46,771 bases of DNA from Clostridia bacterium (GTDB lineage: Bacteria; Bacillota; Peptococcia; DRI-13; SV3-B141): assembly GCA_018433015.1 (NCBI GenBank), contig JAHDSB010000102.1:1-46771 (forward strand), in the 5' to 3' direction. Positions 162 through 27,186 of the stretch are shown here, piece by piece. The notes under the pieces were generated by a model, which did not search any database, had not been told where the DNA came from, and saw only the letters and a list, made by a program, of their open reading frames with translations. Position numbers and translations under genes: made by a program. Numbering within the stretch: position 1 is the stretch's first letter; each line of letters starts with the position of its first letter.

Positions 162-1100
162 TTATAACAAGACTAATTCCTGCTCAAAATATTTTTCCCA
201 ACTGGAACGCAAGTTTTTTAGCACCGGTTGACTCCCCGCAGCTAATATCACCAAGGAAGGCTGCTCCGGAACAATATCTGTCTTTTTTATTTCTAATTGA
301 TTTGTTGTTCCATCTATATAATGCCACTCTTCCTCAATACGTACAAACCCTTTTATCCTATAAAAATACTCAGAAAAATCTTTTATCCAGTTCATCAGGT
401 TCTCTTTAGAGTAAGTACCTTCCATAGCCACTAATATCTTTTGTGTCCCAATTATAATTTTTTTAGTTATATTGATATCTCCAGAGCTATTATCATTATT
501 GAGGTCAGCGATCCAGCTCAAATCCTTTATTTTTCCATAAGTAGTTCTTTTAATAGGTGCTAGAGGATTAACTTGACGAATAATTTGCTCTACTGAATCC
601 AACTTGCTTTCCTCTACTAAATCTGTTTTATTTAGTAGAATCAAATCACTGCTGGCAATTTGCAATTTAACTGCTGCCGCTGTATCAAATAATTTTTCAA
701 AATTAGTTGCATCAACAAGAGTTATATTTCCTCTGTAATCATAACAATCGTCTGTCTTTTTTTGTACTAGGGATAATATCTTCGACATCCCCGTAGGATC
801 TGAGAGACCGGAACTCTCGATAAGAACAGCCTCTACTTCAAATTTCGCCATCTTTAATAAGGCCTCTACAAAGGTATCTGAGCGACAATTACAAAAGATA
901 GATCCATTACTTATTTCTTTCAGAGCTATACCTTCTTCTTGTAACAATAATCCATCGATTCCCTGTTTGCCAAATTCATTGACAATCAGCGCTATCTTCT
1001 CATCTTTAAAGGCATCTATCAAATTGTGCATAAAAGTAGTTTTTCCGGAGCCTAGAAAGCCCGTGATGAGATATAATTTTTTTCCTCTTTGTTTGCACAT
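162..1100 (-). CDS. CobW/COG0523-type G3E GTPase
   Basis: This 312-aa P-loop GTPase belongs to the CobW/HypB/UreG (G3E) group, whose members act in metal or cofactor insertion. Walker A is GFLGSGKTT near residues 15-23, Walker B is the IESSGLSDP segment near residue 95, and NKTD near residue 157 is the guanine-specificity motif. The usual metal-binding CxCC after NG is altered to SIFCNC. The C-terminal third is short and fits the CobW_C domain. The gene starts 53 bp after the UroD-thioredoxin gene and is probably co-transcribed with it. By context it could serve a corrinoid or zinc methyltransferase, perhaps delivering metal or helping reactivation; that role is inference. Confidence 0.85.
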   Translation of the reverse strand: MCKQRGKKLYLITGFLGSGKTTFMHNLIDAFKDEKIALIVNEFGKQGIDGLLLQEEGIALKEISNGSIFCNCRSDTFVEALLKMAKFEVEAVLIESSGLSDPTGMSKILSLVQKKTDDCYDYRGNITLVDATNFEKLFDTAAAVKLQIASSDLILLNKTDLVEESKLDSVEQIIRQVNPLAPIKRTTYGKIKDLSWIADLNNDNSSGDINITKKIIIGTQKILVAMEGTYSKENLMNWIKDFSEYFYRIKGFVRIEEEWHYIDGTTNQLEIKKTDIVPEQPSLVILAAGSQPVLKNLRSSWEKYFEQELVLL

Positions 1101-1153: not shown

Positions 1154-2509
1154 TTAGTTCATAGCCTCTTTGATAGCCCCTTCCAGTTCCTCTTTGCTAG
1201 GTATGATAGAAGAGTATTTTAATTTTCCATTAATATAGATGCTGGGTAAATGTTGTACTCCCATTTTTTTAACTCTGGCAATATTTTCTTTAATAGTGAA
1301 TTTATATTCAACCACATCGATGGCCTCGCCAAAATGTTCTTTAGCATCCATGGCGGCATTCAGCATATAGGTACAAGCAGCACAAGTTGCTGAATCTAAA
1401 GTAAATACCTCTACTAAAGGTCTCTCCAAATTATCATAGTCAGGTAATTCTACCTCTATATCTTCTTCCACAGCTTCATAATTCTCTAAGATTTCTCTAA
1501 CTTTATCAGTTTCACGTATAGCCTGTTGTACGGCAATAGTATTCTCTACCGGTACATCATAAGGCATATCACAACCTGGAGCTATAATTAAATTTTTATG
1601 ATTCAGTTTATCTAACAGGTCTACAGTATATTTCATATTATCTTGCTGAGTTCCGTGCAACATTACTGTGGTAAGAGGAATGTTACCTCCAATAGCCACG
1701 TTATATTTATCAGTAATCTCTTTAGCCGCTACCATATCTATATTTTCATCGATAGAAATAGAATCAGGGCCTGTTTGACACATAACATCTATACTTCTGG
1801 TGGCATCTCCACAGACAAAGAAGGAAGAAAATGTTTGTTTCTCTCTGATAAAGTTGAATAAGTCTGTATACGGCTCTAAGAGGAATTTTTTAAAGTGTCG
1901 CGGTGAGATCTGCGATACTAAGGGATCCACTACAGCTATTACATCCATACCTGCTTCAATATAATATTCAGCAATCTTCTTATTAACTTCATTTGTATAG
2001 TTTATTAGCTTTTTAGTATATTCCAGATCTTCAAACATATCCATGAAAATATTTGTTCCCCTGAGATGAGAGGCCAGAGTAAATGGTCCACATGTTAAAC
2101 CATAAAGAGCGGTAGTCTCACCTACTGCTTCTTTCATCTTGGTCATAACATCCAATACCAGAGGCAATCTACCATCAGTTTTTTGGGGCATCATACAAGT
2201 ACACGGTACATCTTTAGTTTCAGATAAAACGTGTGTCTTTACTGCGGGAGGAGCATCTTCGGCCCACTGCAACTCACATCCCAAAATCTCTGCTTCTATT
2301 TGTAAATCAAATAATACAGGTTGTCCATCGGGTCTATATAATTTATTAACTTCCAGCAGGGCATTAAATAACTTTTCTCCATCTGTTAATATTTCCTTAG
2401 CACTTACTCCTGTTAATTTTCCAGCGTGAACACCTGCAAAAGGAACCCAAGCTACACGCGGTGTATCTTCATGATTTAATGTCTTAAATATTAGTTCTTT
2501 TCCTGTCAT
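1154..2509 (-). CDS. UroD-family (MtaA-like) methyltransferase fused to a thioredoxin-like domain
   Basis: The 451-aa protein has two parts. Residues about 1-340 are a uroporphyrinogen decarboxylase-fold domain of the MtaA/MtbA/CmuA type, zinc enzymes that move methyl groups from a corrinoid protein to a thiol. Residues about 362-451 are a thioredoxin-like domain with CAAC at 376-379 and the cis-proline loop at HLPS (Pro422). In MtaA-type enzymes zinc is held by His-X-Cys plus a later Cys. Here Cys233 (FVCG) and Cys313 (PGCD) are present, but the His position is Phe231. The start is ATG with AAGGAGG just upstream. It is the first gene of a leftward operon with the CobW-type GTPase. It is the candidate second methyltransferase of the locus; the acceptor is unknown. 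Confidence 0.88.
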   Translation of the reverse strand: MTGKELIFKTLNHEDTPRVAWVPFAGVHAGKLTGVSAKEILTDGEKLFNALLEVNKLYRPDGQPVLFDLQIEAEILGCELQWAEDAPPAVKTHVLSETKDVPCTCMMPQKTDGRLPLVLDVMTKMKEAVGETTALYGLTCGPFTLASHLRGTNIFMDMFEDLEYTKKLINYTNEVNKKIAEYYIEAGMDVIAVVDPLVSQISPRHFKKFLLEPYTDLFNFIREKQTFSSFFVCGDATRSIDVMCQTGPDSISIDENIDMVAAKEITDKYNVAIGGNIPLTTVMLHGTQQDNMKYTVDLLDKLNHKNLIIAPGCDMPYDVPVENTIAVQQAIRETDKVREILENYEAVEEDIEVELPDYDNLERPLVEVFTLDSATCAACTYMLNAAMDAKEHFGEAIDVVEYKFTIKENIARVKKMGVQHLPSIYINGKLKYSSIIPSKEELEGAIKEAMN

Positions 2510-2550
2510 GGTACGCCTCCTTGTTTAAGTTATTATCTGTTGTTTAAACC

Positions 2551-2647
2551 TATCATATAAAAATTTTTATAATTTTTCTTGTCCCACCATCATAATTTTT
2601 GTAATATTTTTGGTTTTTTCTATTTTTTTCATTGACATGAATTTTTC
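2551..2647 (-). promoter_or_regulatory. Conserved upstream control region, copy A
   Basis: About 97 nt upstream of the UroD-thioredoxin gene also occurs upstream of the BCCT transporter operon (copy B, 9403-9501). By eye the 63 nt nearest the gene match at about 50 positions without gaps. Shared words on the minus strand are GAAAAATTCA, ATGAAAAAAA, TACAAAAATTA and GACAAGAAAA, ending at a -10-like TATGAT (2552-2557). There is no good -35 box, which suits an activator-dependent promoter. The adjacent PocR/AraC regulator is the natural candidate to bind here. Confidence 0.6.
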
Positions 2648-2659
2648 TTATGTTATTAT
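2632..2659 (+). promoter_or_regulatory. Sigma-A-type promoter for the radical SAM / PocR-AraC pair
   Basis: TTGACA at 2632-2637 and TATTAT at 2654-2659 are separated by 16 bp and read rightward toward the radical SAM gene. This gives a leader of about 160 nt. The promoter overlaps the distal part of conserved region A, so binding that activates the leftward operon could also affect this promoter. Confidence 0.5.
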
Positions 2660-2825
2660 TTAGTTAAAATCAACAATTCATTAGTTTTTCTTCGCATTTA
2701 ACCTATAGGGGTATTTTCAAATAAATAAAATTATATCTATTAAGTTCCTTTAAAAGTTATAAGATTCCTAATTTAATTAGTTATATTAAAAAATTTAAAT
2801 ATCTAAATGGAAGAGGTGCAGTAAT

Positions 2826-3791
2826 GTGAGTGAAATTGATTTATTACTTGCTAAGGCATTAAGAAAGGATTTATTGGATGAAAATGAAGCCCTCAAATTG
2901 TTGCAAATTAAGAATTGCTCTGAAGATTATTACAAATTAATTTCTGCTGCCAACGAACTAACTCGGCAAGAGTTTAATAATAAAGGATACATATTTACTC
3001 AATTAGGAATAAATGCTGAGCCCTGCTCAGTAAACTGTAAGTTCTGTTCTATGGGAAAAGATCATTACGTCATGGAAAGTAAATGGAGAAAAGATTTAAC
3101 CATAATACTCAAGGATATTGAAGCATTAGTCAAAGCAGGAATAGATGATTTATTTATCATGACAACGGCTGATTTTCCTATAGAACAAGTCTTATTAATA
3201 GGCAAACATGCTAAAAAGTTATTACCTCCCGCTATGCCCTTGGTTGTTAATATCGGCGACTTTGATTATAAAACGGCTTTACAGCTCAAAAAAGTTGGAT
3301 TTACAGGAGCATATCACATTAACCGTTTAAGAGAAGGTATTGATACAGATACAACTTCGGAAATGAGGATTAAAACTCTGGATGCTATCAAAAAAGCCGG
3401 TTTAGATTTATACTATTGTGTTGAACCTATTGGTCCGGAGCATAGCTATGAAGAGTTAGTAACAGAAATGATCCGCGCCAGAAATTATCAGGTGCAAGTT
3501 ATGGCCGTGATGAGAAGAATTCCTGTGAAAGGCGTTCCGTTATACCATAAAGGTCAAATTACCGCCGTTGAATTAACTAAAATTGCAGCAGTAGCCCGTC
3601 TCGTCTCTCAGCCTACCAGAGCTATGAATGCCCATGAGACTGTAGAAATGAGTTTAATTGCCGGAGTTAATCAGCTTTATGCTGAGTTGGGCGCTAATCC
3701 TCGTGATGATTATTCTAAAACAGAAAATAATAGAGGTTTTTCTGTAGCTAAAGTACGTAAACTTCTACAAGATGCCCAATACGAGGTGTAA
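2826..3791 (+). CDS. BioB-like radical SAM protein of unknown substrate
   Basis: This 321-aa protein has the radical SAM cluster motif CSVNCKFC (Cys67, Cys71, Cys74) inside a TIM-barrel that resembles the BioB/HydE/PylB group. The later CVEPIGPEHS and RIPVKGVPL segments correspond to SAM-binding and BioB-like elements. The start is GTG; an ATG two bases earlier runs straight into TGA, and the ribosome site is GAAGAGGTG. It diverges from the UroD-thioredoxin operon and is followed 32 bp later by the PocR/AraC regulator. Context suggests a role in the corrinoid demethylation system, for example cofactor or substrate processing, but sequence does not give the substrate. A true biotin synthase is less likely because no bio genes are nearby. 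Confidence 0.8.
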   Translation: MSEIDLLLAKALRKDLLDENEALKLLQIKNCSEDYYKLISAANELTRQEFNNKGYIFTQLGINAEPCSVNCKFCSMGKDHYVMESKWRKDLTIILKDIEALVKAGIDDLFIMTTADFPIEQVLLIGKHAKKLLPPAMPLVVNIGDFDYKTALQLKKVGFTGAYHINRLREGIDTDTTSEMRIKTLDAIKKAGLDLYYCVEPIGPEHSYEELVTEMIRARNYQVQVMAVMRRIPVKGVPLYHKGQITAVELTKIAAVARLVSQPTRAMNAHETVEMSLIAGVNQLYAELGANPRDDYSKTENNRGFSVAKVRKLLQDAQYEV

Positions 3792-3823
3792 AAATCCAGT
3801 TAAAGGTTAAAGGGGTTTTTATC

Positions 3824-5077
3824 GTGATTTTTGATGAAAAGGGACAAATAATTGTTAAAAATTTAAAAGAATTCTTGAAGACATATTATGTAACTACCGG
3901 AATTAGCATTAGTGCCATAAAAACCGATGGTTCTATTATCAATCACTATGGTGATTCCTTGAATTTTTGTAATATGTGTTCTGAGTATTGGGATAAGACA
4001 TCCCCCTGTAAAAAGAGTTATATTGATGCCTGTAGAATAGCTGTAAGTATTGGCGAACCATACTACTTTTTTTGCCCTTTAGATTTAATGCAAATAGCTA
4101 TCCCCCTAGTAAATGAAGATACTTTACTTGGGGGTTTATTTGCTGGGCCTATCCTAGTTAATAAACTAAGTGAGGAAATTATTACTTCTATTAGTAATTG
4201 TAATATGCCTTCAGATATCTCCCAAGAGCTCATAACAAATCTACAGAAAATACCCATCATTGATACTTTAAAAATAAAATATTTAGGCGATCTCCTCTTT
4301 ATGTCAGCATCATATCAAATGCGCTGTTGCCATCGCGCATTAGATGAAAGAACCCAACGTATGAAACAACAGTCCAGGATAAACGAGCAAATGCAGTTAT
4401 ATAAATTGAACCCTGAAGATAGTTATTATTCTTATTCGGAAGAAAAGGATTTATATACTAAAGTTACTTATGGAAATGTATCTGAAGCAAAAAATATCCT
4501 CAATAAGCTTTTAGCCTTCATCTATTTAAAAGAGGGTCATAATATTCCTGTCATTAAGACAAGGATCACTGAATTGTGTTCCTTGCTTTCCCGAGCAGCA
4601 ATTGAAGGTGGTGCTAATATGAAAGAAATTATGGCCTTTAATTGTTTACTATTCGAAGATTTGAAGAAAATCAATAACCTAGAGGATATTTCTTTTTGGA
4701 TGGTAAAGGTTTTAGAATATTATACGGAAAATATAGTGTGCATCCCTTGTTCTAAAAACAAAGATATTATTAAAAAAGCTATTACCTTTATTAATGCCAA
4801 TTATACAAAACCTATCAAGCTAAAAGATGTCGCAAATCATGTACGTCTAAATCCCTCTTACTTTTCTACCTTATTTAAAAAAGAAGTAAAAGTCTCCTTT
4901 GCCGATTATCTGAAAAAGATCCGCATAGAAGAAAGTAAATATCAATTAAAATATACTCAAAACAGTATCCCAGATATTGCAATTTCCGTAGGTTTCAGTG
5001 ATCAAAGTTATTTTACAAAAACCTTTAAAAAATCTACCGGTTTAACCCCCAGATTATATCGCATAGAACATGCCTAA
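3824..5077 (+). CDS. AraC-family regulator with N-terminal PocR sensor domain
   Basis: This is a 417-aa transcription regulator. Residues about 1-170 form a PocR-type ligand or cofactor sensing domain with a cysteine set (Cys49, Cys52, Cys62, Cys70, Cys84) able to hold a metal or act in redox sensing. Residues about 310-417 are a double helix-turn-helix AraC domain ending in the usual GFSDQSYFTKTFKKSTG signature. The start is GTG behind AAAGGGG. It lies downstream of the radical SAM gene and converges on the corrinoid protein gene. It is the only obvious regulator in the methyltransferase locus, so it probably controls the two operons that share the conserved upstream region; that link is inference. 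Confidence 0.88.
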   Translation: MIFDEKGQIIVKNLKEFLKTYYVTTGISISAIKTDGSIINHYGDSLNFCNMCSEYWDKTSPCKKSYIDACRIAVSIGEPYYFFCPLDLMQIAIPLVNEDTLLGGLFAGPILVNKLSEEIITSISNCNMPSDISQELITNLQKIPIIDTLKIKYLGDLLFMSASYQMRCCHRALDERTQRMKQQSRINEQMQLYKLNPEDSYYSYSEEKDLYTKVTYGNVSEAKNILNKLLAFIYLKEGHNIPVIKTRITELCSLLSRAAIEGGANMKEIMAFNCLLFEDLKKINNLEDISFWMVKVLEYYTENIVCIPCSKNKDIIKKAITFINANYTKPIKLKDVANHVRLNPSYFSTLFKKEVKVSFADYLKKIRIEESKYQLKYTQNSIPDIAISVGFSDQSYFTKTFKKSTGLTPRLYRIEHA

Positions 5078-5103
5078 ATTTAAACTGCCTATTATAAAAC
5101 AAG

Positions 5104-5137
5104 AGCGAGAATTCTTTTGATAAGAGAATTCTCGCTT
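5104..5137. terminator. Bidirectional terminator between convergent genes
   Basis: A 12-bp inverted repeat (AGCGAGAATTCT and its complement) lies between the convergent AraC regulator and corrinoid protein genes. It can end both transcripts. Confidence 0.65.
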
Positions 5138-5179
5138 AATTATATTATTTATCAAGTAATTCTTACTGCCCTAGTATGT

Positions 5180-5812
5180 TTAGGCAGATACTAATCTTGT
5201 AGCTACCTCTACAGCTTCATTGGCATCGGAGGAATAATGTGCACCAATTTGCTGTGCAAATTCGTCGTTTACAGGGGCCCCCCCTACCATCACTTTAACT
5301 TTATCATATAAACCTGCTTCTTTTATGGCCTGTACTGCTTCTTTCATAGCTTTCATAGTTGTTGTAAGCATGGCAGACATTCCAATGATATCAGGGTTAT
5401 ATTGTTTTATAGCTTCAATAATTTTTTCCGGTTCTGTATCAATCCCGAGATTTATTACTTCAAATCCCGCTCCTTCCAACATCATACTAACTAAATTTAA
5501 CCCGATATCATGTAAGTCACCTTTTACAGTGGCCATAATAACAGTCCCTGCTTTTTTGATGTCGCCGTCATTAAGTAACGGTTTAATAATTTCCATACCT
5601 GAATTCATAGCTTTTGCAGCAATCAAGACTTCCGGTACAAACATTTCCCCTTCTTTGAACAATTCTCCTACCTCATTCATTCCTGCTAGCAGAGCATTGT
5701 TCAATATTTCTACTGCTGGTTTCCCTTCATCTACAGCTTTCTGAGTCAGTTCTCTAACTTGGGCTGTTTGTCCTTCCATCAAGTTTTCCGCTATATCTTG
5801 ATAAATACTCAT
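5180..5812 (-). CDS. Corrinoid protein, MttC/MtbC/MtgC type
   Basis: This 210-aa methyltransferase corrinoid protein has an N-terminal four-helix cap (residues about 1-88) and a B12-binding Rossmann domain. The cobalt-ligating motif GDLHDIG places the axial His near residue 101. Further B12 contacts are GMSAML and the GG of VMVGGAPV. It carries the methyl group between the MttB-family enzyme and the second methyltransferase. The ATG at 5812 has GGAGGT ten bases upstream; the in-frame ATG at 5830 overlaps that Shine-Dalgarno and is unlikely. It is the last gene of the transporter / methyltransferase / corrinoid operon, 59 bp after the methyltransferase. Confidence 0.93.
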   Translation of the reverse strand: MSIYQDIAENLMEGQTAQVRELTQKAVDEGKPAVEILNNALLAGMNEVGELFKEGEMFVPEVLIAAKAMNSGMEIIKPLLNDGDIKKAGTVIMATVKGDLHDIGLNLVSMMLEGAGFEVINLGIDTEPEKIIEAIKQYNPDIIGMSAMLTTTMKAMKEAVQAIKEAGLYDKVKVMVGGAPVNDEFAQQIGAHYSSDANEAVEVATRLVSA

Positions 5813-5889
5813 GGTCTTTTCTACCTCCATAATTTAAAGTTATGTCTAAAACTGTCTATTGCCAAGGGACCAATGTATTGCTCTATCTA

Positions 5890-7278
5890 TTATACAGTTA
5901 AATAGGGTTTTAAAAATTCTTCTTGTTCTTTAGTTAATTCAGGAGCTTTATACTTGGATAACCTTTTTTGCATTTCTTCATATGCTCTATCAACTGCAGA
6001 TTTTGCACCTTTTTTCTCCCAGACTTCTAGACCCTCTTTTACGAACAGCTTACTTGTACAGTGCTCTTTTCTATAGTACATAGCGGTATGCATTTCTTCT
6101 AAATACTGCCCTTTGGGGCCAACTTGCTTAATCAAATCTACTGCTAAAGTTTCATCATTGACATTGATCCCCTCAGCCAGACGTTTACACATGGCTACAA
6201 GATGTTCATCAATAATATACTTCTCATAGCTTAACAAGTTAAATGAATCTAGAATACCACAGGAATGTAGTACCATATGAATACCTGAAATAAATGGAGG
6301 TATTAAGGTAAAGGATCCTTCAATACCGGCTTGAATGTCAGGAATCTTGGAATCTGCTAAAGATCCACCTGACCTGGAAGGAACGCCGTAGTATTGAGCT
6401 AAAGCGGCAGTAGCATAAGTTATTAGAGCAGTTTCTGCGGCACCAATAGCAGGTGTAGCATAGCGCATATCACAAGAACCTGTAGTATTACCGTAAATAA
6501 CTGGTAGTCCCGGGCACACTAACTGACTTAGAACTATGCCCGCTAACTGTTCGGCATTATTTGTAGCAAGTGTACCTGCTATAGTTACAGGGCTTGTGGC
6601 TCCCGGTAGTGAACATGTTGCAAACATTAGGGGCTGCTTTTCTTTAGCAAATTCAAAAAGAGATTCCAACATAACTTTATCATAAGCTAAAGGTGACAAA
6701 GTACTAATAATACCTAAAGCAACACAATCATCTTCAGTCTCATGGAATTTTTTCAAAATATATAGACTATCGACTGCATCTTTTTTTGTAGTTGTAAAGC
6801 CAATGACAGGCTTAGTTCCTAACTTTAATGTGGTAGCCAGAGCATAATTTCTCTGTTTATCTTCAGGAATATCAAGGGGTACCATGATATTAGGATTGTG
6901 GACATCCATCACTTTACTGCTTTCATGAAGCTTTGTCAGTTTGATAAAGTCCTCAGAATTAACCCTTCTCTTTTCTCCCTTCTCCGAAACTTCAATAACA
7001 CCTGACAGAGGAGCAACTACAGTTCTTTCCCCACCAATAGTTACTTCCGATTTAGGTCCTTTCCATACGAAGGAAGTTGGCACTGTTTTTAAAGCTTGAT
7101 TCAAAAGGGCTTCACTTATAAATACCCTATGACCTTCTACCTTAGCACCATGCTTTTTAAACACTTCCAAAACTTCATCATAAAGGAAATCGACACCGAC
7201 ATCTTCTAAAATCTTTAAAGTTGCTTCATGGATTCTTTCTACATCTTGTTTTTTTATTATAGTACTTCTAAATTCCAT
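5890..7278 (-). CDS. MttB-family methyltransferase without pyrrolysine (MtgB-like)
   Basis: The 462-aa protein belongs to the trimethylamine methyltransferase (MttB, COG5598) superfamily. Archaeal MttB needs a pyrrolysine encoded by an internal UAG. Here the frame is open over the normal family length and no amber codon is used, as in the MtgB glycine-betaine enzymes and related quaternary-amine demethylases. The glycine-rich stretch SRSGGSLADSK falls in the region that carries Pyl in archaeal enzymes. It should take a methyl group from a quaternary amine and give it to Co(I) of the corrinoid protein encoded just downstream. The BCCT transporter gene 42 bp upstream supports a betaine-like substrate. 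Glycine betaine, carnitine or proline betaine cannot be told apart by eye. Confidence 0.9.
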   Translation of the reverse strand: MEFRSTIIKKQDVERIHEATLKILEDVGVDFLYDEVLEVFKKHGAKVEGHRVFISEALLNQALKTVPTSFVWKGPKSEVTIGGERTVVAPLSGVIEVSEKGEKRRVNSEDFIKLTKLHESSKVMDVHNPNIMVPLDIPEDKQRNYALATTLKLGTKPVIGFTTTKKDAVDSLYILKKFHETEDDCVALGIISTLSPLAYDKVMLESLFEFAKEKQPLMFATCSLPGATSPVTIAGTLATNNAEQLAGIVLSQLVCPGLPVIYGNTTGSCDMRYATPAIGAAETALITYATAALAQYYGVPSRSGGSLADSKIPDIQAGIEGSFTLIPPFISGIHMVLHSCGILDSFNLLSYEKYIIDEHLVAMCKRLAEGINVNDETLAVDLIKQVGPKGQYLEEMHTAMYYRKEHCTSKLFVKEGLEVWEKKGAKSAVDRAYEEMQKRLSKYKAPELTKEQEEFLKPYLTV

Positions 7279-7320
7279 TATATTATCCCCCTTACAGCTA
7301 GCTGGATTTACTTCCTTCCA

Positions 7321-8943
7321 TTATTTCGCAGCATTTTCCACTAATTTTTTTCCCTGGGTGGGTATTTTATCATCATAAATAACGTGCCCATCACTACCTA
7401 TCTTTTCAGGTGTTTCCTTCTTAATAAACATTTTTAAGAATCCTATGCCCACTGCAATCTGCAGGATCAGGATGGGGAAACCAACTAGTAGTTTAACTAC
7501 TTTGGCACCATCTAGTCCTCCGTTAAGTAAGAAAATAACAGCGATAGCGCCCATGAAAATTCCCCAGAAGATTTGAACGCCGGCCGGAGCATCGTCTTCA
7601 GTATAATTTTTACCCGTTGTTATACTCATTTTTGATACGGTGGAAGTAACGGCGTTGGCAAGTGTAATAAAAGATATTAACACAATAATTAACATCAAAG
7701 GTTTAGTTATAACAGCAAGTGGCAATTGATCGAAGAGAGCAAGCATAATAGATTCATGTCCCTTATCAAGGATTACTTGGAATAAATCTACACTCTTTGT
7801 TACCCACTGAGTATGGGCTGCCAATCCACCAAAAATCATAAACCAAACCCAACCAAAGATACAAGGTGCAACCATGTTTACAGTTATAAATTCTCTAATA
7901 GATCTACCTTTACTCAATCTGGCCAGGAATAATCCTGTAGTTGGTGCAAAGATAAAGAAATCAATATACCATAACCAATTCCACCACTGTGACCATTTAT
8001 CAGAACCGGGATAAGGATCAGCAAATGTCATATTTGTAAAGAAGTGTTCTATCATACCACCTGTGGCTTGAGTACCTAAATTTAAAGAAAATACTGTTGG
8101 TCCCACTATTATTACGAATCCTAGCAAACTTATGAATAAAAGGGCATTCTTATTACCTAACCATTGAATACCATTCTTTAAGCCGGTTACACTAGAAATC
8201 GTATATATGATAGTAACGACTATAGCAGTAATAATCCAGGTTTTAGCTCCGGTTACAACACCAAATATCTGTCTTAAACCATCTGATACTTGAAGCAAAC
8301 CATATCCTAAAGAACCTGCTACTCCACCAACAATTGCAAAAACGATCAAACCATCTATTATTGAAGAATATTTATAAACTTTATTACCTAATAAAGGATA
8401 TAAAGTTGAAGTTGTACTATAGGGCTGTTTTAAGTTGTAATATACATAAGCACATACCAATCCGGCCGCTACATAAACTCCATACAACGTAATAGTCCAG
8501 TGCATCATGCCCATTTCAAAACCCCACTGAATAGCTTGAGGGCTTCCTGCTTCTAAAAACATTCCGCTAGCAGGACGCATAGCATATTCAATCACCTCAG
8601 CGGGAGGAAACATTACTATACCCATACCCATGCCTGCACATAAAGATATAGCCCACCAAGTAAACCTGCTAAATTCCGGTTTTGCATCGGGGCCACCAAG
8701 CTTTATCTTACCAAAGGGATGACATAAAAAGAATAAACATAAGAATATACTAAATAGTACACCTAAGTTTACTAACCATCCCAAAGAATCACACATTTTA
8801 TTTACTATTCCCCATAAAACACCTGTAAATAATTCCGGGTTTACTATACCCATAACAAAGATTATACTAAATATAACAGCAGAAATTCCTACTACTACAC
8901 CTCTAAGCTTGTAATCTCTCTTATCATGCTTCATATTTTCCAT
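7321..8943 (-). CDS. BCCT-family betaine/carnitine/choline transporter
   Basis: This 540-aa membrane protein has about 12 hydrophobic segments and the BCCT layout. The glycine-rich GMGMGIVMFPPAE segment and the MHWTITLYGVY segment match the substrate-binding helices. The WWNWLWYIDFFIFAP aromatic box is followed by LARLSKGRSIREF, the family signature. It imports a quaternary ammonium compound by ion symport or substrate/product antiport. It is the first gene of a leftward operon with the MttB-family methyltransferase and corrinoid protein, so it probably feeds the demethylase. The ribosome site is AAGGAGG. A promoter inferred about 450 nt upstream would give this gene a long leader. Confidence 0.92.
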   Translation of the reverse strand: MENMKHDKRDYKLRGVVVGISAVIFSIIFVMGIVNPELFTGVLWGIVNKMCDSLGWLVNLGVLFSIFLCLFFLCHPFGKIKLGGPDAKPEFSRFTWWAISLCAGMGMGIVMFPPAEVIEYAMRPASGMFLEAGSPQAIQWGFEMGMMHWTITLYGVYVAAGLVCAYVYYNLKQPYSTTSTLYPLLGNKVYKYSSIIDGLIVFAIVGGVAGSLGYGLLQVSDGLRQIFGVVTGAKTWIITAIVVTIIYTISSVTGLKNGIQWLGNKNALLFISLLGFVIIVGPTVFSLNLGTQATGGMIEHFFTNMTFADPYPGSDKWSQWWNWLWYIDFFIFAPTTGLFLARLSKGRSIREFITVNMVAPCIFGWVWFMIFGGLAAHTQWVTKSVDLFQVILDKGHESIMLALFDQLPLAVITKPLMLIIVLISFITLANAVTSTVSKMSITTGKNYTEDDAPAGVQIFWGIFMGAIAVIFLLNGGLDGAKVVKLLVGFPILILQIAVGIGFLKMFIKKETPEKIGSDGHVIYDDKIPTQGKKLVENAAK

Positions 8944-9402
8944 AAATTAAATTGCCTCCTTTCTTAAAGGGAAAACGACATGTTTAAAAGCATATAAATA
9001 CATAAATATTTTTAAAGTACTCTCTTTTTATTTATCTAAATAAACTATATCTACATAGAAACTATCTTCATACTTGTGAATATTGTATACTTTAACAAAT
9101 ATTTCTCAATTTGGTACATAATATCTCTTCTATAGTAGTATAAAAAAACTGGACTATCATTAGTAAATCCTGTATAATTCATTAATGTTATTACTCAAAA
9201 TACCTTAGAAGGAAAACTGGTTAATTATCTTTGTTCATAATGAAATTTATATTTACTGCCATAAATATAAATTTCAGACCGGTTTTCTTTCTTTTTTTAC
9301 ATTTAGTATACTTTTCACCTCTTTTCCTTTTCTTCTAAAACAGATATTCTTATTTTCCGACTATACCACCCCTTCCTTATTCCTAATCTTTATCTGCAAT
9401 TC
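8944..9402 (-). other. Long leader of the transporter/methyltransferase operon
   Basis: No gene of normal length lies here. If the leftward transcript starts near 9397, this is a leader of about 450 nt. It holds a perfect 15-bp hairpin (9241-9276) nested in a weaker outer stem (about 9207-9220 with 9280-9293). A possible 14-codon GTG-started frame stops in the first bases of the hairpin. I see no known riboswitch. Confidence 0.4.
9241..9276. repeat. Perfect inverted repeat, 15-bp stem with 6-nt loop
   Basis: TGAAATTTATATTTA is followed by CTGCCA and the exact complement of the first arm. An outer imperfect stem pairs AGAAGGAAAACTGG with CCGGTTTTCTTTCT. The two imperfect outer positions form G-U pairs on the + strand but mismatches on the minus strand. 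The + strand continues into a T-rich tract, so a rightward terminator of a small RNA is also possible. Confidence 0.6.
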
Positions 9403-9501
9403 TATAATATAAAAATATTCATATCTTTTCTTGTCTCTCCTTTGTAATTTTTGTACTTTCTTTGGGTTTTACGTTGTTTTTTTCATAAGTGTGAATTTTT
9501 C
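9403..9501 (-). promoter_or_regulatory. Conserved upstream control region, copy B
   Basis: This matches copy A (2551-2647) over its whole length with a single 2-nt length difference. The proximal end carries a -10-like TATTAT (9404-9409, minus strand). There is no rightward gene here and the TTGACA of copy A is not conserved, so the shared words must serve leftward transcription. It is the probable activator site and promoter for the BCCT / MttB / corrinoid operon. Confidence 0.55.
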
Positions 9502-9583
9502 CGGGATTTTTATTCATAATAATAAATTTGCTTTCTCCTTAATTTGAAATAGTTAAAAAAATCACTTGATTTTTAATAAAAAT

Positions 9584-9663
9584 CAAAAAAAGCTTCTTCC
9601 CTATTTTTTGTTCATTTGGTTTAATCCCAATGATTTTATAAAAATAAGGAAGAAGCTTTTTTA
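9584..9663 (-). terminator. Terminator after the DUF1638 gene
   Basis: Arms of about 22 bp (left arm 9585-9607, right arm 9640-9662) contain AGCTTCTTCC and its complement and are bounded by A and T runs. The hairpin lies nine bases past the DUF1638 stop and would end the leftward transcript. Confidence 0.75.
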
Positions 9664-9671
9664 CCTACACT

Positions 9672-10403
9672 CTATTTTTTACTTTTAATAATATCTTCAT
9701 CATAAGTGGAGTAAATTAGGCTATCTCTATCAACTATTAAATATTCTTGCTCATTCCACTCTCCCCAGAGCAATTTTTTAATGAGGGACGAATCCGATTC
9801 TTTCTTACTAAATTTCCATCCTCTCTCCTGAGCTAATTCAGCAACTTGTCCTGTAAAATCATGTTCTATCAATTTATTATCCATATATAGACCTGAATTA
9901 TAATGCTTTTTCCATTGATCGGCCATCTCAATTAAATATTTTGCATTTTCTTCTCCATATTTCTTTACATAATCATCATAACTTTCACCCAAACCGATGC
10001 TAGCTAATTCTTTTCTTTCCTTTTTCAGCCCGTTTCGTTCTAACCAAGAAGCGATATAATAAATGGTCCCAGGATTATCTCTAAAATACTGGGCATAAAC
10101 TTCCTTCGATCCCATAAACAGAGTAATACAATCATGGGCTTTAGGTATAACTATAGGAATACTTCTGCTTTTAAGGTTTTCTAACACTTTGCCGCACAAG
10201 CCAAATCCTAAAACAATATAATCATAAATATCTTGCTTTTCCTCTAGAAAATCTATCTTTTCTTGCAAGATTTTATGCATATCTTGTGGATATTCATGAT
10301 AGTAGGAATCTAATAGTTCTATATCGATAATATGAGGTGAAGCAGCCGCCCAATAATAAAATTCCCTGGCTAAAACTTCACACAGAAAAGCCTTAAATCT
10401 CAT
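9672..10403 (-). CDS. DUF1638 domain protein
   Basis: A 243-aa soluble protein of the DUF1638 family, recognised by the KAHDCITLFMGS segment (residues about 83-94), the upstream GFGLCG turn and the PGTIYY..SW stretch. Its biochemical role is not established; the family is often found near corrinoid methyltransferases of the MttB type. The conserved Cys and His residues could bind metal, which is inference. It follows the RACo-type activator gene by 29 bp in one transcript and has the ribosome site TAGGAGG. Probable role: an accessory factor in corrinoid-dependent demethylation. Confidence 0.8.
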   Translation of the reverse strand: MRFKAFLCEVLAREFYYWAAASPHIIDIELLDSYYHEYPQDMHKILQEKIDFLEEKQDIYDYIVLGFGLCGKVLENLKSRSIPIVIPKAHDCITLFMGSKEVYAQYFRDNPGTIYYIASWLERNGLKKERKELASIGLGESYDDYVKKYGEENAKYLIEMADQWKKHYNSGLYMDNKLIEHDFTGQVAELAQERGWKFSKKESDSSLIKKLLWGEWNEQEYLIVDRDSLIYSTYDEDIIKSKK

Positions 10404-10432
10404 GCTATGCCTCCTAGTTGACTGATATATTA

Positions 10433-12256
10433 TTAGTTCAAGTACATTCCCTGTAAGAATTCTTCCTGAAAATCCGGATGCTTAGAAATCTCAATATGCT
10501 TAGTATGATAGGCATATTCGCGTGCTTCTTTTTCCAAGATATTTTCATCACATAAAGCCATGAGGGCTCCTTCTCCTGCACCGTTACCGATAGACCTTAT
10601 CTTATCTAGTTTTATCTGAGGAAATAAACCAATGGAGGCCGCACTTTTTTTACTCACAAAATTTCCAAAGGCTCCCGCCAGCAAAATCTCGTCTATATCT
10701 TGGGAGACTATAGAAGCTTCCTTAAGCAAGATGTTAATTCCGGCTTTAATAGCCCCCTTGGCTAACTGTAGTTCTCTAATGTCCTTCTGGGTTAGAGTTA
10801 TATCTTCTTGGTGATAAGTATCTTGGGCATAAGCAATGATTACTTCCTTTTTTCTATCCTTAATCTTTATTCTCTGAGCAAGTTTTTCATTTGCTATCTG
10901 GCTGGGATCCTTAATTCTTCCATCAGTGTTTATTACGCCCGCTATTAGAAGCTCACTCACTACATCAATAAGCCCGGACCCGCATATCCCTTTGGCTGGT
11001 TTATTATCAATTGTGGTGTAAAACAAATCATCTTGAATTTTTACAGTATTAATAGCCCCGCTGAAAGCTTGCATCCCATCTTTAATTTTTGCTCCTTCAA
11101 AGGCAGGTCCAGCAGCTGTAGAACAAGTATATCTTCCCTGAGGAGTGGAAAGCACGATTTCCCCATTGGTACCTAAATCAAGCAATAACCTATTATTTCT
11201 AGCATTTTTAAAATCTGCTGCTATCATGGCCCCAACTGTATCTCCTCCCACAAAGCCGGCTATACCCGGCATCAAGATAACCTGACCTTGAGGATTCATC
11301 TGCTTTATTCCTAAAAATGCAGCATTTTTTCTAACCATATCTTTTATAACACCCTTAAAAGGAAGAGCTGACAAGGTTTTAAGACTTAAGCCTAACAAGG
11401 AATGGATCATCGTGGTATTTCCAACGATAACACATTTATAAATGTGATTTACTTCAACATTGGCTTGTAATGCTACTTTACTAATTAACTCATTTACCCC
11501 AGCAAGTAATCTTTCCTTTAAAGTATCTATTCCCTGCTCATTTGCTAAACTAAAATCTATGCGGGAAATGACATCGGCTCCGTATCCAACTTGGGGGTTC
11601 TGTATGGAAGCCGCCTTTTTCAACGTACCTTTGTTTAAATCTAACAGATAACAGGCCATGGTTGTTGTGCCAATATCTATTCCTATCCCGTAGATATTTT
11701 CATTTTTATCATAATCTACAGCGATTAGCTGCTTTTTAAACATTGTACAGCTAGCTTCTTCTTGCTGATCAAGATTATAGGAGATCTGCCTGATAATCTC
11801 CAAAGGAATCTCCGCACAATCCAAGTGTTTTTTTAAAGAATCGATAATTGCTTCTTCTTTTTCTGATTTAAGTAAACTAAGTTTTATATTTTTCTTCGTA
11901 ACACCTGAATTTAAGGGATATTTTTTGTATGTATAAGCACCCATCTTTCCTTTCGTATCATTTTTCAATTCATCTTCTACTAAATAAAGCTCCCCATCCC
12001 CTTCTAGATAGGTCTTACAGGCTAGCCTAATTCCTTGGTTAATTTCACTGGCAGTCAAGTGTTTCTTCTCCTGCTCTGTAACATAGCTTACCTTGCCTAA
12101 TACTCTCACCTTACACTTGCCACAACTTCCCTGACCTCCGCAGGGCGCATATATAGAAATGCCGCTTGCATTTACAGCTTCTAAAATCGTTGTCTGGCCA
12201 TTGATTTTTATTTTTTTGTGAAATTGGATAAGGTCTAGTGTATAACAGTCATCCAT
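10433..12256 (-). CDS. RACo-type corrinoid activation protein (2Fe-2S ferredoxin + ASKHA ATPase)
   Basis: This 607-aa protein opens with a plant-type 2Fe-2S ferredoxin domain whose ligands are Cys39, Cys45, Cys48 and Cys80 (CGGQGSCGKC, then RLAC). A linker leads to a large DUF4445/ASKHA domain with the phosphate motif GIGIDIGTTT and later LLDLGTNGEIV and LAGAFGNF segments. Such proteins use ATP to reduce Co(II) corrinoid back to active Co(I) after accidental oxidation. It is the RACo/RamQ layout rather than the RamA form with C-terminal 4Fe-4S clusters. It precedes the DUF1638 gene and probably serves the corrinoid protein at 5180-5812. The conserved control region of the other operons was not found upstream. 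Confidence 0.9.
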   Translation of the reverse strand: MDDCYTLDLIQFHKKIKINGQTTILEAVNASGISIYAPCGGQGSCGKCKVRVLGKVSYVTEQEKKHLTASEINQGIRLACKTYLEGDGELYLVEDELKNDTKGKMGAYTYKKYPLNSGVTKKNIKLSLLKSEKEEAIIDSLKKHLDCAEIPLEIIRQISYNLDQQEEASCTMFKKQLIAVDYDKNENIYGIGIDIGTTTMACYLLDLNKGTLKKAASIQNPQVGYGADVISRIDFSLANEQGIDTLKERLLAGVNELISKVALQANVEVNHIYKCVIVGNTTMIHSLLGLSLKTLSALPFKGVIKDMVRKNAAFLGIKQMNPQGQVILMPGIAGFVGGDTVGAMIAADFKNARNNRLLLDLGTNGEIVLSTPQGRYTCSTAAGPAFEGAKIKDGMQAFSGAINTVKIQDDLFYTTIDNKPAKGICGSGLIDVVSELLIAGVINTDGRIKDPSQIANEKLAQRIKIKDRKKEVIIAYAQDTYHQEDITLTQKDIRELQLAKGAIKAGINILLKEASIVSQDIDEILLAGAFGNFVSKKSAASIGLFPQIKLDKIRSIGNGAGEGALMALCDENILEKEAREYAYHTKHIEISKHPDFQEEFLQGMYLN

Positions 12257-12379
12257 ATTTATTCCCTCTTTTCCTTGTATTGCCGCTAATATGTATGCTT
12301 ATATAAATCTTACTATAGTCCTTACAGATACACAATAGTTCATCTTTATGAAATAAATATGTTTATTTGTTTTCTTACT

Positions 12380-14089
12380 TTAATCATTCGGCACAAAATC
12401 TATGCTATCTCCTATATACATCTTGCCATTGAATTTATATTCAATAATAATATCCCCAATAAAGGAGCACAGTCCAAATTGCCCCGGAACTATAGCCTTT
12501 AGCTTGTTATCCTCTACTTCGAAATCTCGAATACTCACAAATGCTACATCTTCAAATATATACTCAGGTTCCAGTTCCAGATACTCACTACCTAAAGTTC
12601 TGCTTTTTCCCTTTATGATAATCTCCACTTTTTCAGGTGAGAGCTGAGTTTGTACATTCTTATATATAATATGGAGAGGATTTTCCACTTCTATTTCCCG
12701 CAAAGATTCCAGAGCGATTATATGTACTTCTTCCAGATATACTCCTGTACCTGTATCTTTTACTAATGTAACTACCAGCTCTTGCTCCTGGTCATTATTC
12801 AAATCAGCCAAAATCAACTTCGGATAATAGGTGGGATTAGCAACGTTTATCCAGGAAAAGTAACGGGTCTTATCATTGACTTTAAGGATAAACTTCTCAA
12901 GCATCCCTTCCTCTTCTTTCATTGAATAAAGCCGGATAGCTTTTTCCGGCAATTCTGCTACAAGCTTTCCTTCCTCAGCTGCCTCTTTTTCTTTTTCACT
13001 TAAGAGATCGTATCCTACAACAGACCAAATTCCCGTTTCATCCTGTCTTACCAGACGTTGGAGATAAACCCTATAAAGATTAGAGCTTCCGCCCACTATT
13101 TTAATTACTGCAACTCTTTCATTAAATTGTTCTAATTCATAATTTATTACTGTTTGACTTACCTGGGGGGAACTATACTCGCTAATAAATTCTCGTGCTA
13201 CTTGCACAGCATTTAGTTTCCCCGGTTGGTGCCCTTCATCAACTTGTCTTTGTTTATTTCGCACTTCTTCCCAATCCACCGGCACTGTTATTTGAGGGGG
13301 ATTAGGGAATTCTTCATTCTTTTGCTCAGTTAGTTGTACAAGTTTGCCTTGGTCATATTTATAGAGATATCTTTCCCCACATCTTCCGTCCCTTATTTTC
13401 CCCGTCTCTATTAAATAAACACCATTTTCTTGATAAAGATTAGCATAATCATTAGCTGTATCATCTGTTATACTTGCTACTTCACAACTACCCTTATCAA
13501 AACGATAAATATCTACATAACCGGGTAAGCTTCCTGTTGATACTGCGAACACCTCTTCTTTACCGTCTCCATCTAAATCTAGAAATTCAGGGCTTCCTGC
13601 TTTCACGAGATTATACCATTTGTTTTTATTTTCATCGTACTTAATAATTCTCATTTCTTTGTATGTTGCACCCATATCCCCTATGATTTGCAGTTCTTGT
13701 TGTTTATCGCCTGTCCTATCAACTGTCTCCACAGCAACCTTTTCTAAGCCATAAGCACCCACTGTTCCTATATAATATAGCTTATCCTTATGTTGGATAT
13801 AACCATATACATCATTATTTTCCCCAGATGCTTGCTTTTGCTGAACATAGAAGTGCACGTGTGCCTGTAAGTCCTTTAAGGTAACACTTTTTGCTAATAC
13901 ATAATCTGGGGCAGGTCCTTCTTCCGGCAGTTCCACCACAGGTACAGGTGTAAAAGATAAATTAACAATTGTCTGTTCCTCTTTAGTTGTATGTTCTGCA
14001 TTTGTAAATCCTAAAATGTTTAGAGCTGCAAAGATCAATAGTGCTGCTATTATCCCTTTCTTATGATTTTGAGTGTACCTAGCAATCAT
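12380..14089 (-). CDS. Membrane-anchored FG-GAP/VCBS-like extracellular protein
   Basis: I do not recognise a named family for the whole 569-aa protein. An N-terminal hydrophobic segment (residues about 12-29) acts as a signal anchor, leaving the rest outside the cell. Two calcium-loop-like segments, DLDGDGKEEV and DLNNDQEQEL, resemble FG-GAP/VCBS repeat loops found in beta-propeller surface proteins. The ATG at 14089 has AGAGGAGG seven bases upstream; the frame stays open to 14155 but no ribosome site fits there. It is a single leftward gene, divergent from the cupin gene. It may be a cell-surface sensor or binding protein; function unknown. Confidence 0.65.
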   Translation of the reverse strand: MIARYTQNHKKGIIAALLIFAALNILGFTNAEHTTKEEQTIVNLSFTPVPVVELPEEGPAPDYVLAKSVTLKDLQAHVHFYVQQKQASGENNDVYGYIQHKDKLYYIGTVGAYGLEKVAVETVDRTGDKQQELQIIGDMGATYKEMRIIKYDENKNKWYNLVKAGSPEFLDLDGDGKEEVFAVSTGSLPGYVDIYRFDKGSCEVASITDDTANDYANLYQENGVYLIETGKIRDGRCGERYLYKYDQGKLVQLTEQKNEEFPNPPQITVPVDWEEVRNKQRQVDEGHQPGKLNAVQVAREFISEYSSPQVSQTVINYELEQFNERVAVIKIVGGSSNLYRVYLQRLVRQDETGIWSVVGYDLLSEKEKEAAEEGKLVAELPEKAIRLYSMKEEEGMLEKFILKVNDKTRYFSWINVANPTYYPKLILADLNNDQEQELVVTLVKDTGTGVYLEEVHIIALESLREIEVENPLHIIYKNVQTQLSPEKVEIIIKGKSRTLGSEYLELEPEYIFEDVAFVSIRDFEVEDNKLKAIVPGQFGLCSFIGDIIIEYKFNGKMYIGDSIDFVPND

Positions 14090-14259
14090 TTTAATCCTCC
14101 TCTTTATATATGAGCGCTCTTCACTCAATTCTAAATTTCCTTCCTCTTTCCTCATTTCTCAGACTAATAGCGGGGAGAGCTTTTGTCAATGGTTGTCTAT
14201 TATCTCTAATACAGCTATAATTTTATTTAGTTGTTTTTAAATCATAAGGGGGTTACATA

Positions 14260-14610
14260 ATGCTTAAAAAAGCTGAGGAATTAACTAAAGAAATAAAAGA
14301 AGGTTTTCGTGGAGGCAAGGGCTCTGTTGAGCTAACCTACCTTTTCAAACAAGAAGAAACTTATAGCAAAAACGCTAAACTTATCGTCAAACTTACCCTG
14401 CAATCCGGATGTTCCATCGGATTACATGCTCACACTGATGACGAAGAAATTTTTTACATCTTAAAAGGTAAGGGCCTGCTCAATGATAATGGCACAGAAA
14501 AAGAAGTAACAGTAGGGGATACCGTATTAACCGGGGGTGGCCAAACTCACGCTTTGGAAAATATAAGTAATGAACCCTTAGAAGTATTAGCCACAATCTT
14601 AGTTTGTTAA
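14260..14610 (+). CDS. Small cupin-domain protein
   Basis: A 116-aa single-domain cupin. The first cupin motif gives the metal-binding set HAHTDDEEIFYILKGKG (His, His, Glu) and the second is GDTVLTGGGQTHALEN (His). Single cupins of this size bind a metal and serve as small-molecule sensors, isomerases or dioxygenases. The ribosome site is GGGGG seven bases before ATG. It is a monocistronic gene ending in its own terminator. Substrate unknown. Confidence 0.82.
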   Translation: MLKKAEELTKEIKEGFRGGKGSVELTYLFKQEETYSKNAKLIVKLTLQSGCSIGLHAHTDDEEIFYILKGKGLLNDNGTEKEVTVGDTVLTGGGQTHALENISNEPLEVLATILVC

Positions 14611-14652
14611 TATTTAAAAGCCTAAGAACTCTACAGAAAAAATGATATGCTC

Positions 14653-14711
14653 CCTTTGTGGTAGACAGTTTAATTAAAAAACTGTTTATTACAAGGAGGA
14701 GCTTTTTTATA
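14653..14711 (+). terminator. Terminator after the cupin gene
   Basis: A long imperfect stem (ACAGTTT / AAACTGT core, extended by CTCC / GGAG) is followed by CTTTTTTA on the + strand. The 250-bp gap to the next gene shows nothing else clear. Confidence 0.7.
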
Positions 14712-14863
14712 CTAGGCAATAATAATTTCCAGGATAAATTTTACAATAAATTTTAGCTACTTATCATTCTTAATTTCAGATATAATTTAAAATGTATGTT
14801 TTTTATACTTTGTACATTCCAAAGCTTTGCTAAGCAATGGGGAATCAGGAAAGGATGTAGGAA

Positions 14864-16492: not shown

Positions 16493-17491
16493 TTATTTGA
16501 AAAAAGCAACCGGCTCAATATCAGCCATAGTCCTTAAGCCGGGACGGCCTCCAATAACTGCGGGAATAGCATTCACTATCATAGCACAGGTGGCAATATC
16601 ACCATTAACACCGTCTTTAACTACCATATCTATATCCGGTGCACCCTCAATAATTACCCGATCTTTTGATTCCGGCTCACCAATGGCAGCTCTGAATTTT
16701 AGAGTAATTAAAGGTTCTCCCTCCACATAGCAACGACCAATCTGTTCTACTCCCAAAACATCTCCGGCAGGAATTGTCATACTATCTGTTTTAACTTCTT
16801 CTTGAGCAATAACGGGATTTATAAGGTCTTCCGTCTTCTCATATTTCCAGCCCATTTTTGCCGCAACCATATGCATGGACTCGGTTAAACCTACATGACG
16901 TATGCTCCCCGCTTTGACCCTCCCCTGGAACTCTGCTACAGTAAGGCCTGCTCCGATTTTCTTTTGGAAAGGTATTCTGCGGAATTTAGCATCCTGTATC
17001 CTTTCCACAGTAATATTTTTAACATGGCGGCACACACCCGTCATGATTAAAGGTAGCAGATCCATCAAGAAACCCGGATTCACACCGGTTCCTAAAACAG
17101 ATACTTCTTTTTCTTGGGCTAATTTATCTATTTCTTGGGCTATCTCAGGTTTAGTACCCCAGGGATAGGATAACTCTTCACAGGTAGATACAATATTTAC
17201 TCCATATTGTAAGATTCCCGTAATTTGCTCCTTAATTTTTTCTAAACTGGAAACTGTAGTTAAGACTACTATATCCACATCTTTTTTTCCTAATAAACTT
17301 TCCACATCATCAGTAATAGTAACCCCTAATTTAGGTAACCCTGCTAATTCGCCCAGATCTTTCCCTACTTTCTGCGGGTCAATATCAATAGCTCCCACAA
17401 TCTCCAGTTCCGGCCTTTCTACTAAATACTGGGTTGCCTTCTGACCAATAGGCCCTAACCCGTACTGAACAACTCTCATTTTCTTTTGCAT
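16493..17491 (-). CDS. 2,4-diaminopentanoate dehydrogenase-like (DapB-fold) oxidoreductase
   Basis: A 332-aa NAD(P)-dependent oxidoreductase. The N-terminal Rossmann fold begins with VVQYGLGPIGQ and has AIDIDPQKVG at the second strand. The body resembles the DapB-related family that includes 2,4-diaminopentanoate dehydrogenase (Ord) of ornithine fermentation. The ribosome site is GAGGAGG. It is the last gene after the deacylase and the split permease, 46 bp beyond the permease stop. No ortAB or other ornithine-pathway gene is visible, so the substrate may be another amino acid freed by the deacylase. Confidence 0.75.
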   Translation of the reverse strand: MQKKMRVVQYGLGPIGQKATQYLVERPELEIVGAIDIDPQKVGKDLGELAGLPKLGVTITDDVESLLGKKDVDIVVLTTVSSLEKIKEQITGILQYGVNIVSTCEELSYPWGTKPEIAQEIDKLAQEKEVSVLGTGVNPGFLMDLLPLIMTGVCRHVKNITVERIQDAKFRRIPFQKKIGAGLTVAEFQGRVKAGSIRHVGLTESMHMVAAKMGWKYEKTEDLINPVIAQEEVKTDSMTIPAGDVLGVEQIGRCYVEGEPLITLKFRAAIGEPESKDRVIIEGAPDIDMVVKDGVNGDIATCAMIVNAIPAVIGGRPGLRTMADIEPVAFFK

Positions 17492-27018: not shown

Positions 27019-27186
27019 AGTCCTCATCTCCTGATTATGTGTCATTTTTTGCATTCTGTATATTTATATGCGCATATCCTTATATAAATATATTACTAGT
27101 ATACTCCTCTGTCAATGTTTTTGTGAATCTAAATTTTTCTAAACCAAAATATAAAACACCTCACAAAATCACCTAATTGTGAGATG

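Follow-up and report, generated by a model that had tools for sequence, protein, structure and literature searches.

A distinct clade of MtaA-like UroD proteins paired with thioredoxin, and its possible role in the handling of corrinoid-bound methyl groups

How does a bacterium relieve its corrinoid protein of a methyl group when no dedicated tetrahydrofolate (THF) methyltransferase is at hand? This question is raised by a contig of a Clostridia bacterium (JAHDSB010000102.1, assembly GCA_018433015.1), analysed over its whole length of 46,771 nucleotides and hereafter called the window. It carries a gene for a UroD-family protein fused to a thioredoxin-like (Trx) domain, close to genes of a corrinoid-dependent methyl-transfer system. 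The first-pass annotation of the window had described the protein as related to MtaA and MtbA, with Phe in place of the zinc-binding His, and had suggested an undescribed way of unloading methyl-corrinoid in place of MtgA. We analysed the protein, its relatives and their gene neighbourhoods across bacterial genomes.

A distinct clade of UroD proteins

The fusion belongs to the URO-D superfamily (PF01208; 176.9 bits against a cut-off of 23.9) and, through its C-terminal part, to Thioredoxin_3 (PF13192; 28.3 bits against a gathering cut-off of 24.8), with a CxxC motif (C376, C379) and P422 in place. The tail also matched thioredoxin 1nho when compared with solved structures, and a Pfam search of the fusion gave neither of the MtgA/MeTr-type domains PF02007 and PF00809. 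In a phmmer alignment with MtaA of M. mazei (4ay7), F231 stood opposite the His of the H-I-C-G motif, and C233 and C313 stood opposite Cys residues of MtaA. Relative to the His-x-Cys...Cys zinc site of the MtaA/CmuA family TIGR01463, the fusion thus has F231 for His and retains both Cys; its score for that family, 145.7 bits, did not reach the curated cut-off of 235.4. The AlphaFold2 model, with a 73-sequence alignment as input, had a mean predicted local distance difference test (pLDDT) of 93.6 and a predicted template-modelling score (pTM) of 0.89. Its closest solved fold was 4ay7 (TM-score 0.89 by target length, E 3.8e-21), at 22% identity in the structural alignment. Pfam, the 4ay7 alignment, C376/C379 and P422 all agree with the domain composition first proposed, an MtaA/MtbA-like UroD joined to a domain with CAAC and a cis-Pro loop.

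A scan of GTDB genomes gave at least 532 confirmed candidate loci, 80 of which were retained for analysis. All 85 fusions compared were invariant at F231, C233, C313, H93, R114, H148, D189, D195, D254, E255, N256, C376, C379 and P422. Their hosts span at least six phyla (Bacillota, Chloroflexota, Spirochaetota, Fusobacteriota, Mycoplasmatota and Synergistota), and full-length fusions were counted in about 15 genomes of the window's phylum (sample of 398). Among the UroD relatives in the fetched loci, position 231 was Phe in 126, Leu in one and His in 40, and none of the 40 His-type sequences was fused to Trx. The two groups were set apart by a score gap (303 versus 175 bits), and a tree built without column 231 split the Phe-type (F-type) from the His-type proteins with a Shimodaira-Hasegawa-like approximate likelihood ratio test (SH-aLRT) support of 99. 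This was a quick tree with several long His-type branches, so relationships within the His-type are uncertain. As judged from these sequence comparisons, the F-type proteins form a distinct clade of MtaA-like UroD proteins with the signature F-x-C...C/U. The exchange of His for Phe with both Cys kept is therefore upheld by the 4ay7 alignment, but not as a local replacement, since Phe marks a large clade and all close homologues have both Phe and the fusion. Invariance in the 85 fusions rules out a local mutation or an assembly or sequencing error at Phe231. The fusion itself is no assembly or annotation accident, as it recurs across phyla and unfused pairs occur elsewhere. We also considered Cys244 as a substitute zinc ligand; it is present in the first 85 fusions but is Ala in L111, L114 and L115, which disfavours it.

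The thioredoxin partner and probable selenocysteine at position 313

Eight F-type sequences in the tree sample were unfused. In the unfused cluster regions read (L133, L134, L135, L136, L137, L138, L139 and L141), the CAAC domain was encoded by a neighbouring open reading frame (ORF), and a separate neighbouring Trx ORF was also found in L157 to L159. The stand-alone Trx ORFs of unfused relatives were 35-43% identical to the Trx domain of the window protein; in L139 the Trx reading frame was apparently broken. No Trx was seen with a shorter F-type copy in L145, whose genome also has fused copies, or with the L160 paralogue. Because a separate neighbouring gene supplies Trx where the two are unfused, the Trx partner of F-type UroD is, by gene content, obligatory and not incidental across the fused and unfused clusters read. 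One of these clusters (L135:10080-12069) contains an operon array of several differing small thioredoxin-like proteins, and the one at 11767-12069 passes the cut-off of the HUIPC selenoprotein family. The SAO/TSO organometal systems were tried as a match, and the fusion gave weak, below-cut-off Trx similarities only.

The second zinc-Cys position varied. In two fusions (L053 and L055), a single TGA falls precisely on codon 313, and the reading frame is conserved before and after it. L141 and the unfused clade (L133-L137, L157-L159 and L154) share this TGA, for a total of 12 genomes on at least three tree branches. As expected of selenoproteins, these relatives have an in-frame UGA at a conserved Cys and a conserved frame downstream of it. 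SelB was found above its curated cut-off in all eight UGA genomes tested. Hairpins were present downstream of the UGA with a mean stability no greater than that of the same region in Cys homologues, so folding energy gave no signal for a selenocysteine insertion sequence (SECIS) relative to those homologues. UGA at codon 313 in the relatives is probably selenocysteine (Sec); the window protein itself has Cys there. Sec at this position points to active chemistry over mere protection of cysteines, contrary to the early suggestion that the fused domain might simply shield the zinc cysteines. L135 (at about 13320) and L136 (at about 13380) each have a further short Trx-like reading frame whose motif (LLTDQU-ASGPYM) contains an in-frame TGA, probably another selenoprotein.

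With some reserve, the reading we prefer is that the F-type fusion accepts the methyl group of the corrinoid protein at its Cys/Sec site, that a thiol or selenol is the final acceptor, and that Trx regenerates the site.

Gene neighbourhoods and the methyl acceptor

In the window, the fusion gene lies within a cluster (Table 1) whose corrinoid protein, RACo and MttB genes sustain the link to a corrinoid system made in the first-pass annotation. As the window is a complete contig, the cluster may extend on another contig. No Rfam riboswitch was found in the window. The radical SAM protein of the cluster is kept beside the fusion-CobW pair in many gut Clostridia. Elsewhere on the contig are an ArsP-type permease and a 2,4-diaminopentanoate dehydrogenase-like protein (26044-27054, 16493-17491), for which no tie to the fusion was seen.

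Table 1. Features of the fusion protein and of the surrounding gene cluster (positions in the window).
Feature	Position	Strand	Evidence or remark
UroD-thioredoxin fusion, F-type MtaA-like methyltransferase (putative)	1154..2509	-	451 aa, ATG start
URO-D domain, residues 3-333	1511..2503	-	PF01208, E 7.7e-52
Phe231 codon, position of MtaA zinc His	1817..1819	-	4ay7 alignment; F in 85/85 fusions
Cys233 codon, first zinc-Cys position	1811..1813	-	85/85 fusions
Cys313 codon, second zinc-Cys position	1571..1573	-	UGA in 12 other genomes
Thioredoxin-like domain, residues 373-446	1172..1393	-	PF13192, 28.3 bits
C376-A-A-C379 motif	1373..1384	-	both Cys in 85/85 fusions
Pro422, cis-Pro position of Trx domain	1244..1246	-	85/85 fusions
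CobW/COG0523 GTPase	162..1100	-	PF02492; 53 bp downstream of fusion, same strand
BioB/PylB-like radical SAM protein, divergent	2826..3791	+	profile match
PocR-domain AraC-family regulator	3824..5077	+	profile match
Corrinoid protein, MtgC/MtbC-like	5180..5830	-	only stand-alone one in genome
MttB-superfamily methyltransferase, quaternary-amine type, without in-frame UAG	5890..7278	-	PF06253, E 2.4e-115
BCCT betaine/carnitine/choline transporter	7321..8943	-	profile match
DUF1638 protein	9672..10403	-	profile match
RACo/AcsV-type corrinoid reductive activase	10433..12256	-	PF14574, PF17651, Fer2

Neighbours were counted over 86 loci, and these counts are lower bounds since contig ends intervene. 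A CobW/COG0523 GTPase was near 77 of them, and 8 loci, partly overlapping with these, had a CobW of a second type. A CobW-type GTPase was the directly downstream gene in 64 of 83 fusions, and lay within 10 kb in 34 of the 36 fully flanked loci. Overall, about 95% of fusions have a CobW GTPase nearby. A precedent exists in COG0523 subfamily 13, which co-localises with the zinc-dependent corrinoid methyltransferases mtaA/mtaB (PMC2770081); CobW likewise stands beside a corrinoid methyltransferase there, but the partners are His-type zinc enzymes. This neighbour, MtaA as the closest fold and the other fully conserved polar residues (H93, H148, D195, D254, E255) favour an ordinary zinc thiol methyltransferase, in which CobW would load zinc and Cys233 and Cys313 would bind it together with a further ligand from the protein or the substrate, while Trx would merely protect or repair the cysteines. 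The CobW association equally allows a zinc site without His. We nevertheless find this explanation rather doubtful: a purely protective Trx is not expected in every F-type cluster read while no examined His-type protein needs one, and a Sec that recurs at position 313 is more usual where a site is redox-active or nucleophilic.

A corrinoid protein was near 46 of the 86 loci, RACo near 40, the PocR regulator near 37, the window-type radical SAM protein near 17, MttB near 12 and DUF1638 near 11; a corrinoid protein or RACo lay within 10 kb in 20 of the 36 fully flanked loci. A stand-alone corrinoid protein was present in all 22 genomes tested, which had been picked mainly for having no corrinoid gene near the fusion. 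A corrinoid-independent role in gut bacteria without a nearby corrinoid gene is thus unsupported. As far as gene content tells, the F-type clade usually occurs with a CobW GTPase, in genomes having a stand-alone corrinoid protein. These data also bear on a role other than methyl transfer, as a corrinoid or metal maturation factor, a sensor or another UroD-fold enzyme. The TIGR01463 score below the cut-off, the CobW, radical SAM and DUF2284 neighbours and the many loci without a close corrinoid protein would fit such a role. The corrinoid protein, RACo and PocR genes near about half of the loci, the result for the 22 genomes and the retention of both substrate-site Cys speak against it, and we hold it to be improbable. 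Genes for MIP-type channels recur near F-type UroD (L082:11577-12392, L091:11586-12395, L133:14663, L134:15437-16273 and L136:10072-10932), which may point to a substrate or product that is small and neutral. One genome from the window's phylum has an MttB gene near F-type UroD (L137:9338-10822, minus strand) with an in-frame TAG, probably a pyrrolysine codon.

We then looked for a methyl acceptor enzyme. The window's genome (99% complete) contained no MtrH (PF02007) and no stand-alone MeTr, and its sole Pterin_bind match was an 804-aa MetH. The impression that no MtgA-type THF methyltransferase is visible thus holds for the whole genome, MetH aside. It also settles the counter-case named with it, since an MtgA of either known type just outside the window is ruled out. 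No dihydropteroate synthase was seen in this genome (G000), MetH being the sole Pterin_bind match; therefore, de novo folate synthesis may be missing. The corrinoid protein of the window is the only stand-alone one in the genome, and a search with the fusion as query gave two UroD proteins, the fusion and a His-type protein on another contig (G000:C148, L018:9576-10613). The latter has an H-N-C-G motif, and its gene lies beside unrelated genes and follows that of a PocR-AraC regulator. In L082 and L099, proteins resembling it, also with H-N-C-G, are encoded close to the fusion.

In one Sec clade (L133, L134, L157, L158, L159 and partly L137), the genes around the Sec form of F-type UroD keep a fixed order. 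RACo and MtrH come first, then His-type UroD, two DGC proteins and a GcvH-like lipoyl carrier; these are followed by the Sec-containing F-type UroD, its Trx and a LipA-like radical SAM protein, and the series closes with dihydrolipoamide dehydrogenase and another GcvH-like protein. Being a short contig, L159 covers the cluster middle only. The L134 cluster (2105-15302) additionally has a lipoate ligase, and in L134, L157 and L158 corrinoid proteins flank the cluster on its RACo side. A GcvH gene also adjoins the fusion in two genomes with the fused form. The lipoyl, dihydrolipoamide dehydrogenase and LipA genes accompanying the Sec form, the obligatory Trx and Sec at position 313 would suit a stoichiometric reductive disposal. 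Methyl-Co would react at the Cys/Sec site, yielding methanethiol if the partner is a persulfide and methane if two reducing equivalents are used; each turnover would form a Cys233-Cys/Sec313 bond, which Trx would reduce. Fermenting hosts without THF methyltransferases and the disulfide of MetE (see below) are in line with this, but methane formation has no known chemical precedent in this fold and GcvH is not universal; we give such disposal little credence. That MtrH and the Sec form share a cluster speaks for the reverse direction, in which the fusion would be a demethylase, like MtsA or Mlp2, that charges the corrinoid protein with a methyl group drawn from an S-methyl, Se-methyl or other compound. 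His-type Mlp2 handles methyl-selenide (PMC10418091), and several loci have a corrinoid protein, RACo and the fusion without another obvious methyl-donor enzyme. However, an MttB-type donor is already present in the window and in the 12 loci mentioned above, and the F-type active site is unlike that of Mlps with His-Cys-Cys. We consider the demethylase direction unlikely.

Proposed mechanism and relation to known systems

In the reading we prefer, a thiol or selenol methyltransferase regenerated by Trx, the BCCT carrier would import a quaternary amine, and an MttB-type enzyme would transfer a methyl group from it to the corrinoid protein, whose active cobalt would be maintained by RACo. The fusion would then remove the methyl group from Co(III). 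Its Cys233/Cys313 (or Cys/Sec) pair would be the methyl-handling site, acting as a direct nucleophile or binding zinc or another soft metal supplied by CobW, and a sulfur or selenium atom would finally carry the methyl group. The pair may oxidise by side reaction or at every turnover, and Trx would reduce it through thiol-disulfide exchange at CAAC. In the Sec clade described above, the reductant of Trx is likely a lipoyl H-protein, itself reduced by dihydrolipoamide dehydrogenase. In zinc-free MetE, the equivalent two Cys form a disulfide (PMC539065), and a redox pair is therefore geometrically possible.

Several points weigh against this proposal. MttB is near so few loci that the methyl source must vary or be elsewhere. 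The single His-type UroD of the window's genome could be the acceptor enzyme. CobW also accompanies ordinary zinc enzymes, so that its presence favours a metal site no less than a redox pair. A stand-alone MeTr was found in 12 of 56 fusion genomes, adjoining the genome's corrinoid gene in four, and MtrH in 5 of 50. Hence, a dedicated THF acceptor enzyme is often, though not invariably, missing from fusion genomes, and the suggested replacement of MtgA by an undescribed unloading route fits the window's genome but is not general, all the more as MtrH is part of the unfused Sec clade clusters. About 23 of 56 fusion genomes had no GcvH or a weak match only; the lipoyl link is therefore clade-specific, and a lipoyl H-protein as general partner is unsupported. 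Finally, the methyl acceptor, the metal and the stoichiometric redox of the fusion are inferred.

Known systems share parts of this arrangement. MtaA/MtbA (PDB 4ay7) have the TIM-barrel URO-D fold, both zinc Cys positions and the corrinoid gene context in common with the fusion, which differs in having Phe for the zinc His, a Trx domain, Sec variants and bacterial hosts. MetE has a related barrel with a zinc Cys pair that becomes a disulfide on zinc loss (PMC539065), but it is cobalamin-independent, with a His-Cys-Glu-Cys site and without a Trx domain. The CdmB/O-demethylase MTI enzymes (PMC13222342) share the UroD fold and a corrinoid protein partner, and CdmB activity is zinc-independent; that system has a THF methyltransferase partner, and no Trx partner is described for it. 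The MttB, MttC, RACo and BCCT genes of the window are those of MttB/MtgB quaternary-amine systems, but the described bacterial systems pass the methyl group to THF through MtgA/MtqA-type enzymes, which are absent from the window's genome.

The nearest published description is the Mlp family, as presented in the main text of Kountz and Balskus (PMC10418091). Mlp proteins of type 1 mlp gene clusters are MtaA-like, come mostly from anaerobic Firmicutes and occur with a corrinoid protein and Ram/RACo. These clusters have no THF methylase within 20 kb, and S/Se methyl transfer was proposed for them. The window agrees on the THF methylase, with none in the genome except MetH and the contig edge 1.1 kb away. 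In contrast, type 1 clusters need at least two Mlps that run in one direction with the corrinoid protein and Ram and are not split by a divergent gene, whereas the window cluster has one UroD gene, with the PocR and radical SAM genes divergent between its parts. The Mlp site is His-Cys-Cys except in several Mlps1, and the main text mentions no Trx fusion, Phe or CobW. We found no published description of this UroD-Trx fusion in the literature searched, most subscription journals being outside its reach, and neither UroD nor MtaA is named in the main text of a review on selenoproteins of prokaryotes from 2026 (PMC13188914).

Altogether, these results suggest a widespread but undescribed F-type branch of B12-linked methyltransferases and a new redox-coupled handling of methyl groups. 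The family is present in hundreds of genomes of gut, sediment and animal-associated anaerobes. It bears on the fate of methyl groups from betaine-like and other compounds in bacteria without THF methyltransferases, and provides an uncommon natural case of Cys exchanged for Sec at a methyltransferase site of the zinc type, together with a redox partner of its own, open to in vitro test. A bolder possibility, for which we see only a slim chance, is that the F-type UroD-Trx pair is a redox enzyme freeing methyl from methyl-corrinoid by Cys/Sec reduction, re-powered by thioredoxin (and by lipoyl/NADH in the Sec clade), as an unknown methyl sink for anaerobes without the Wood-Ljungdahl pathway. If true, such a sink would let these anaerobes demethylate quaternary amines and related compounds.
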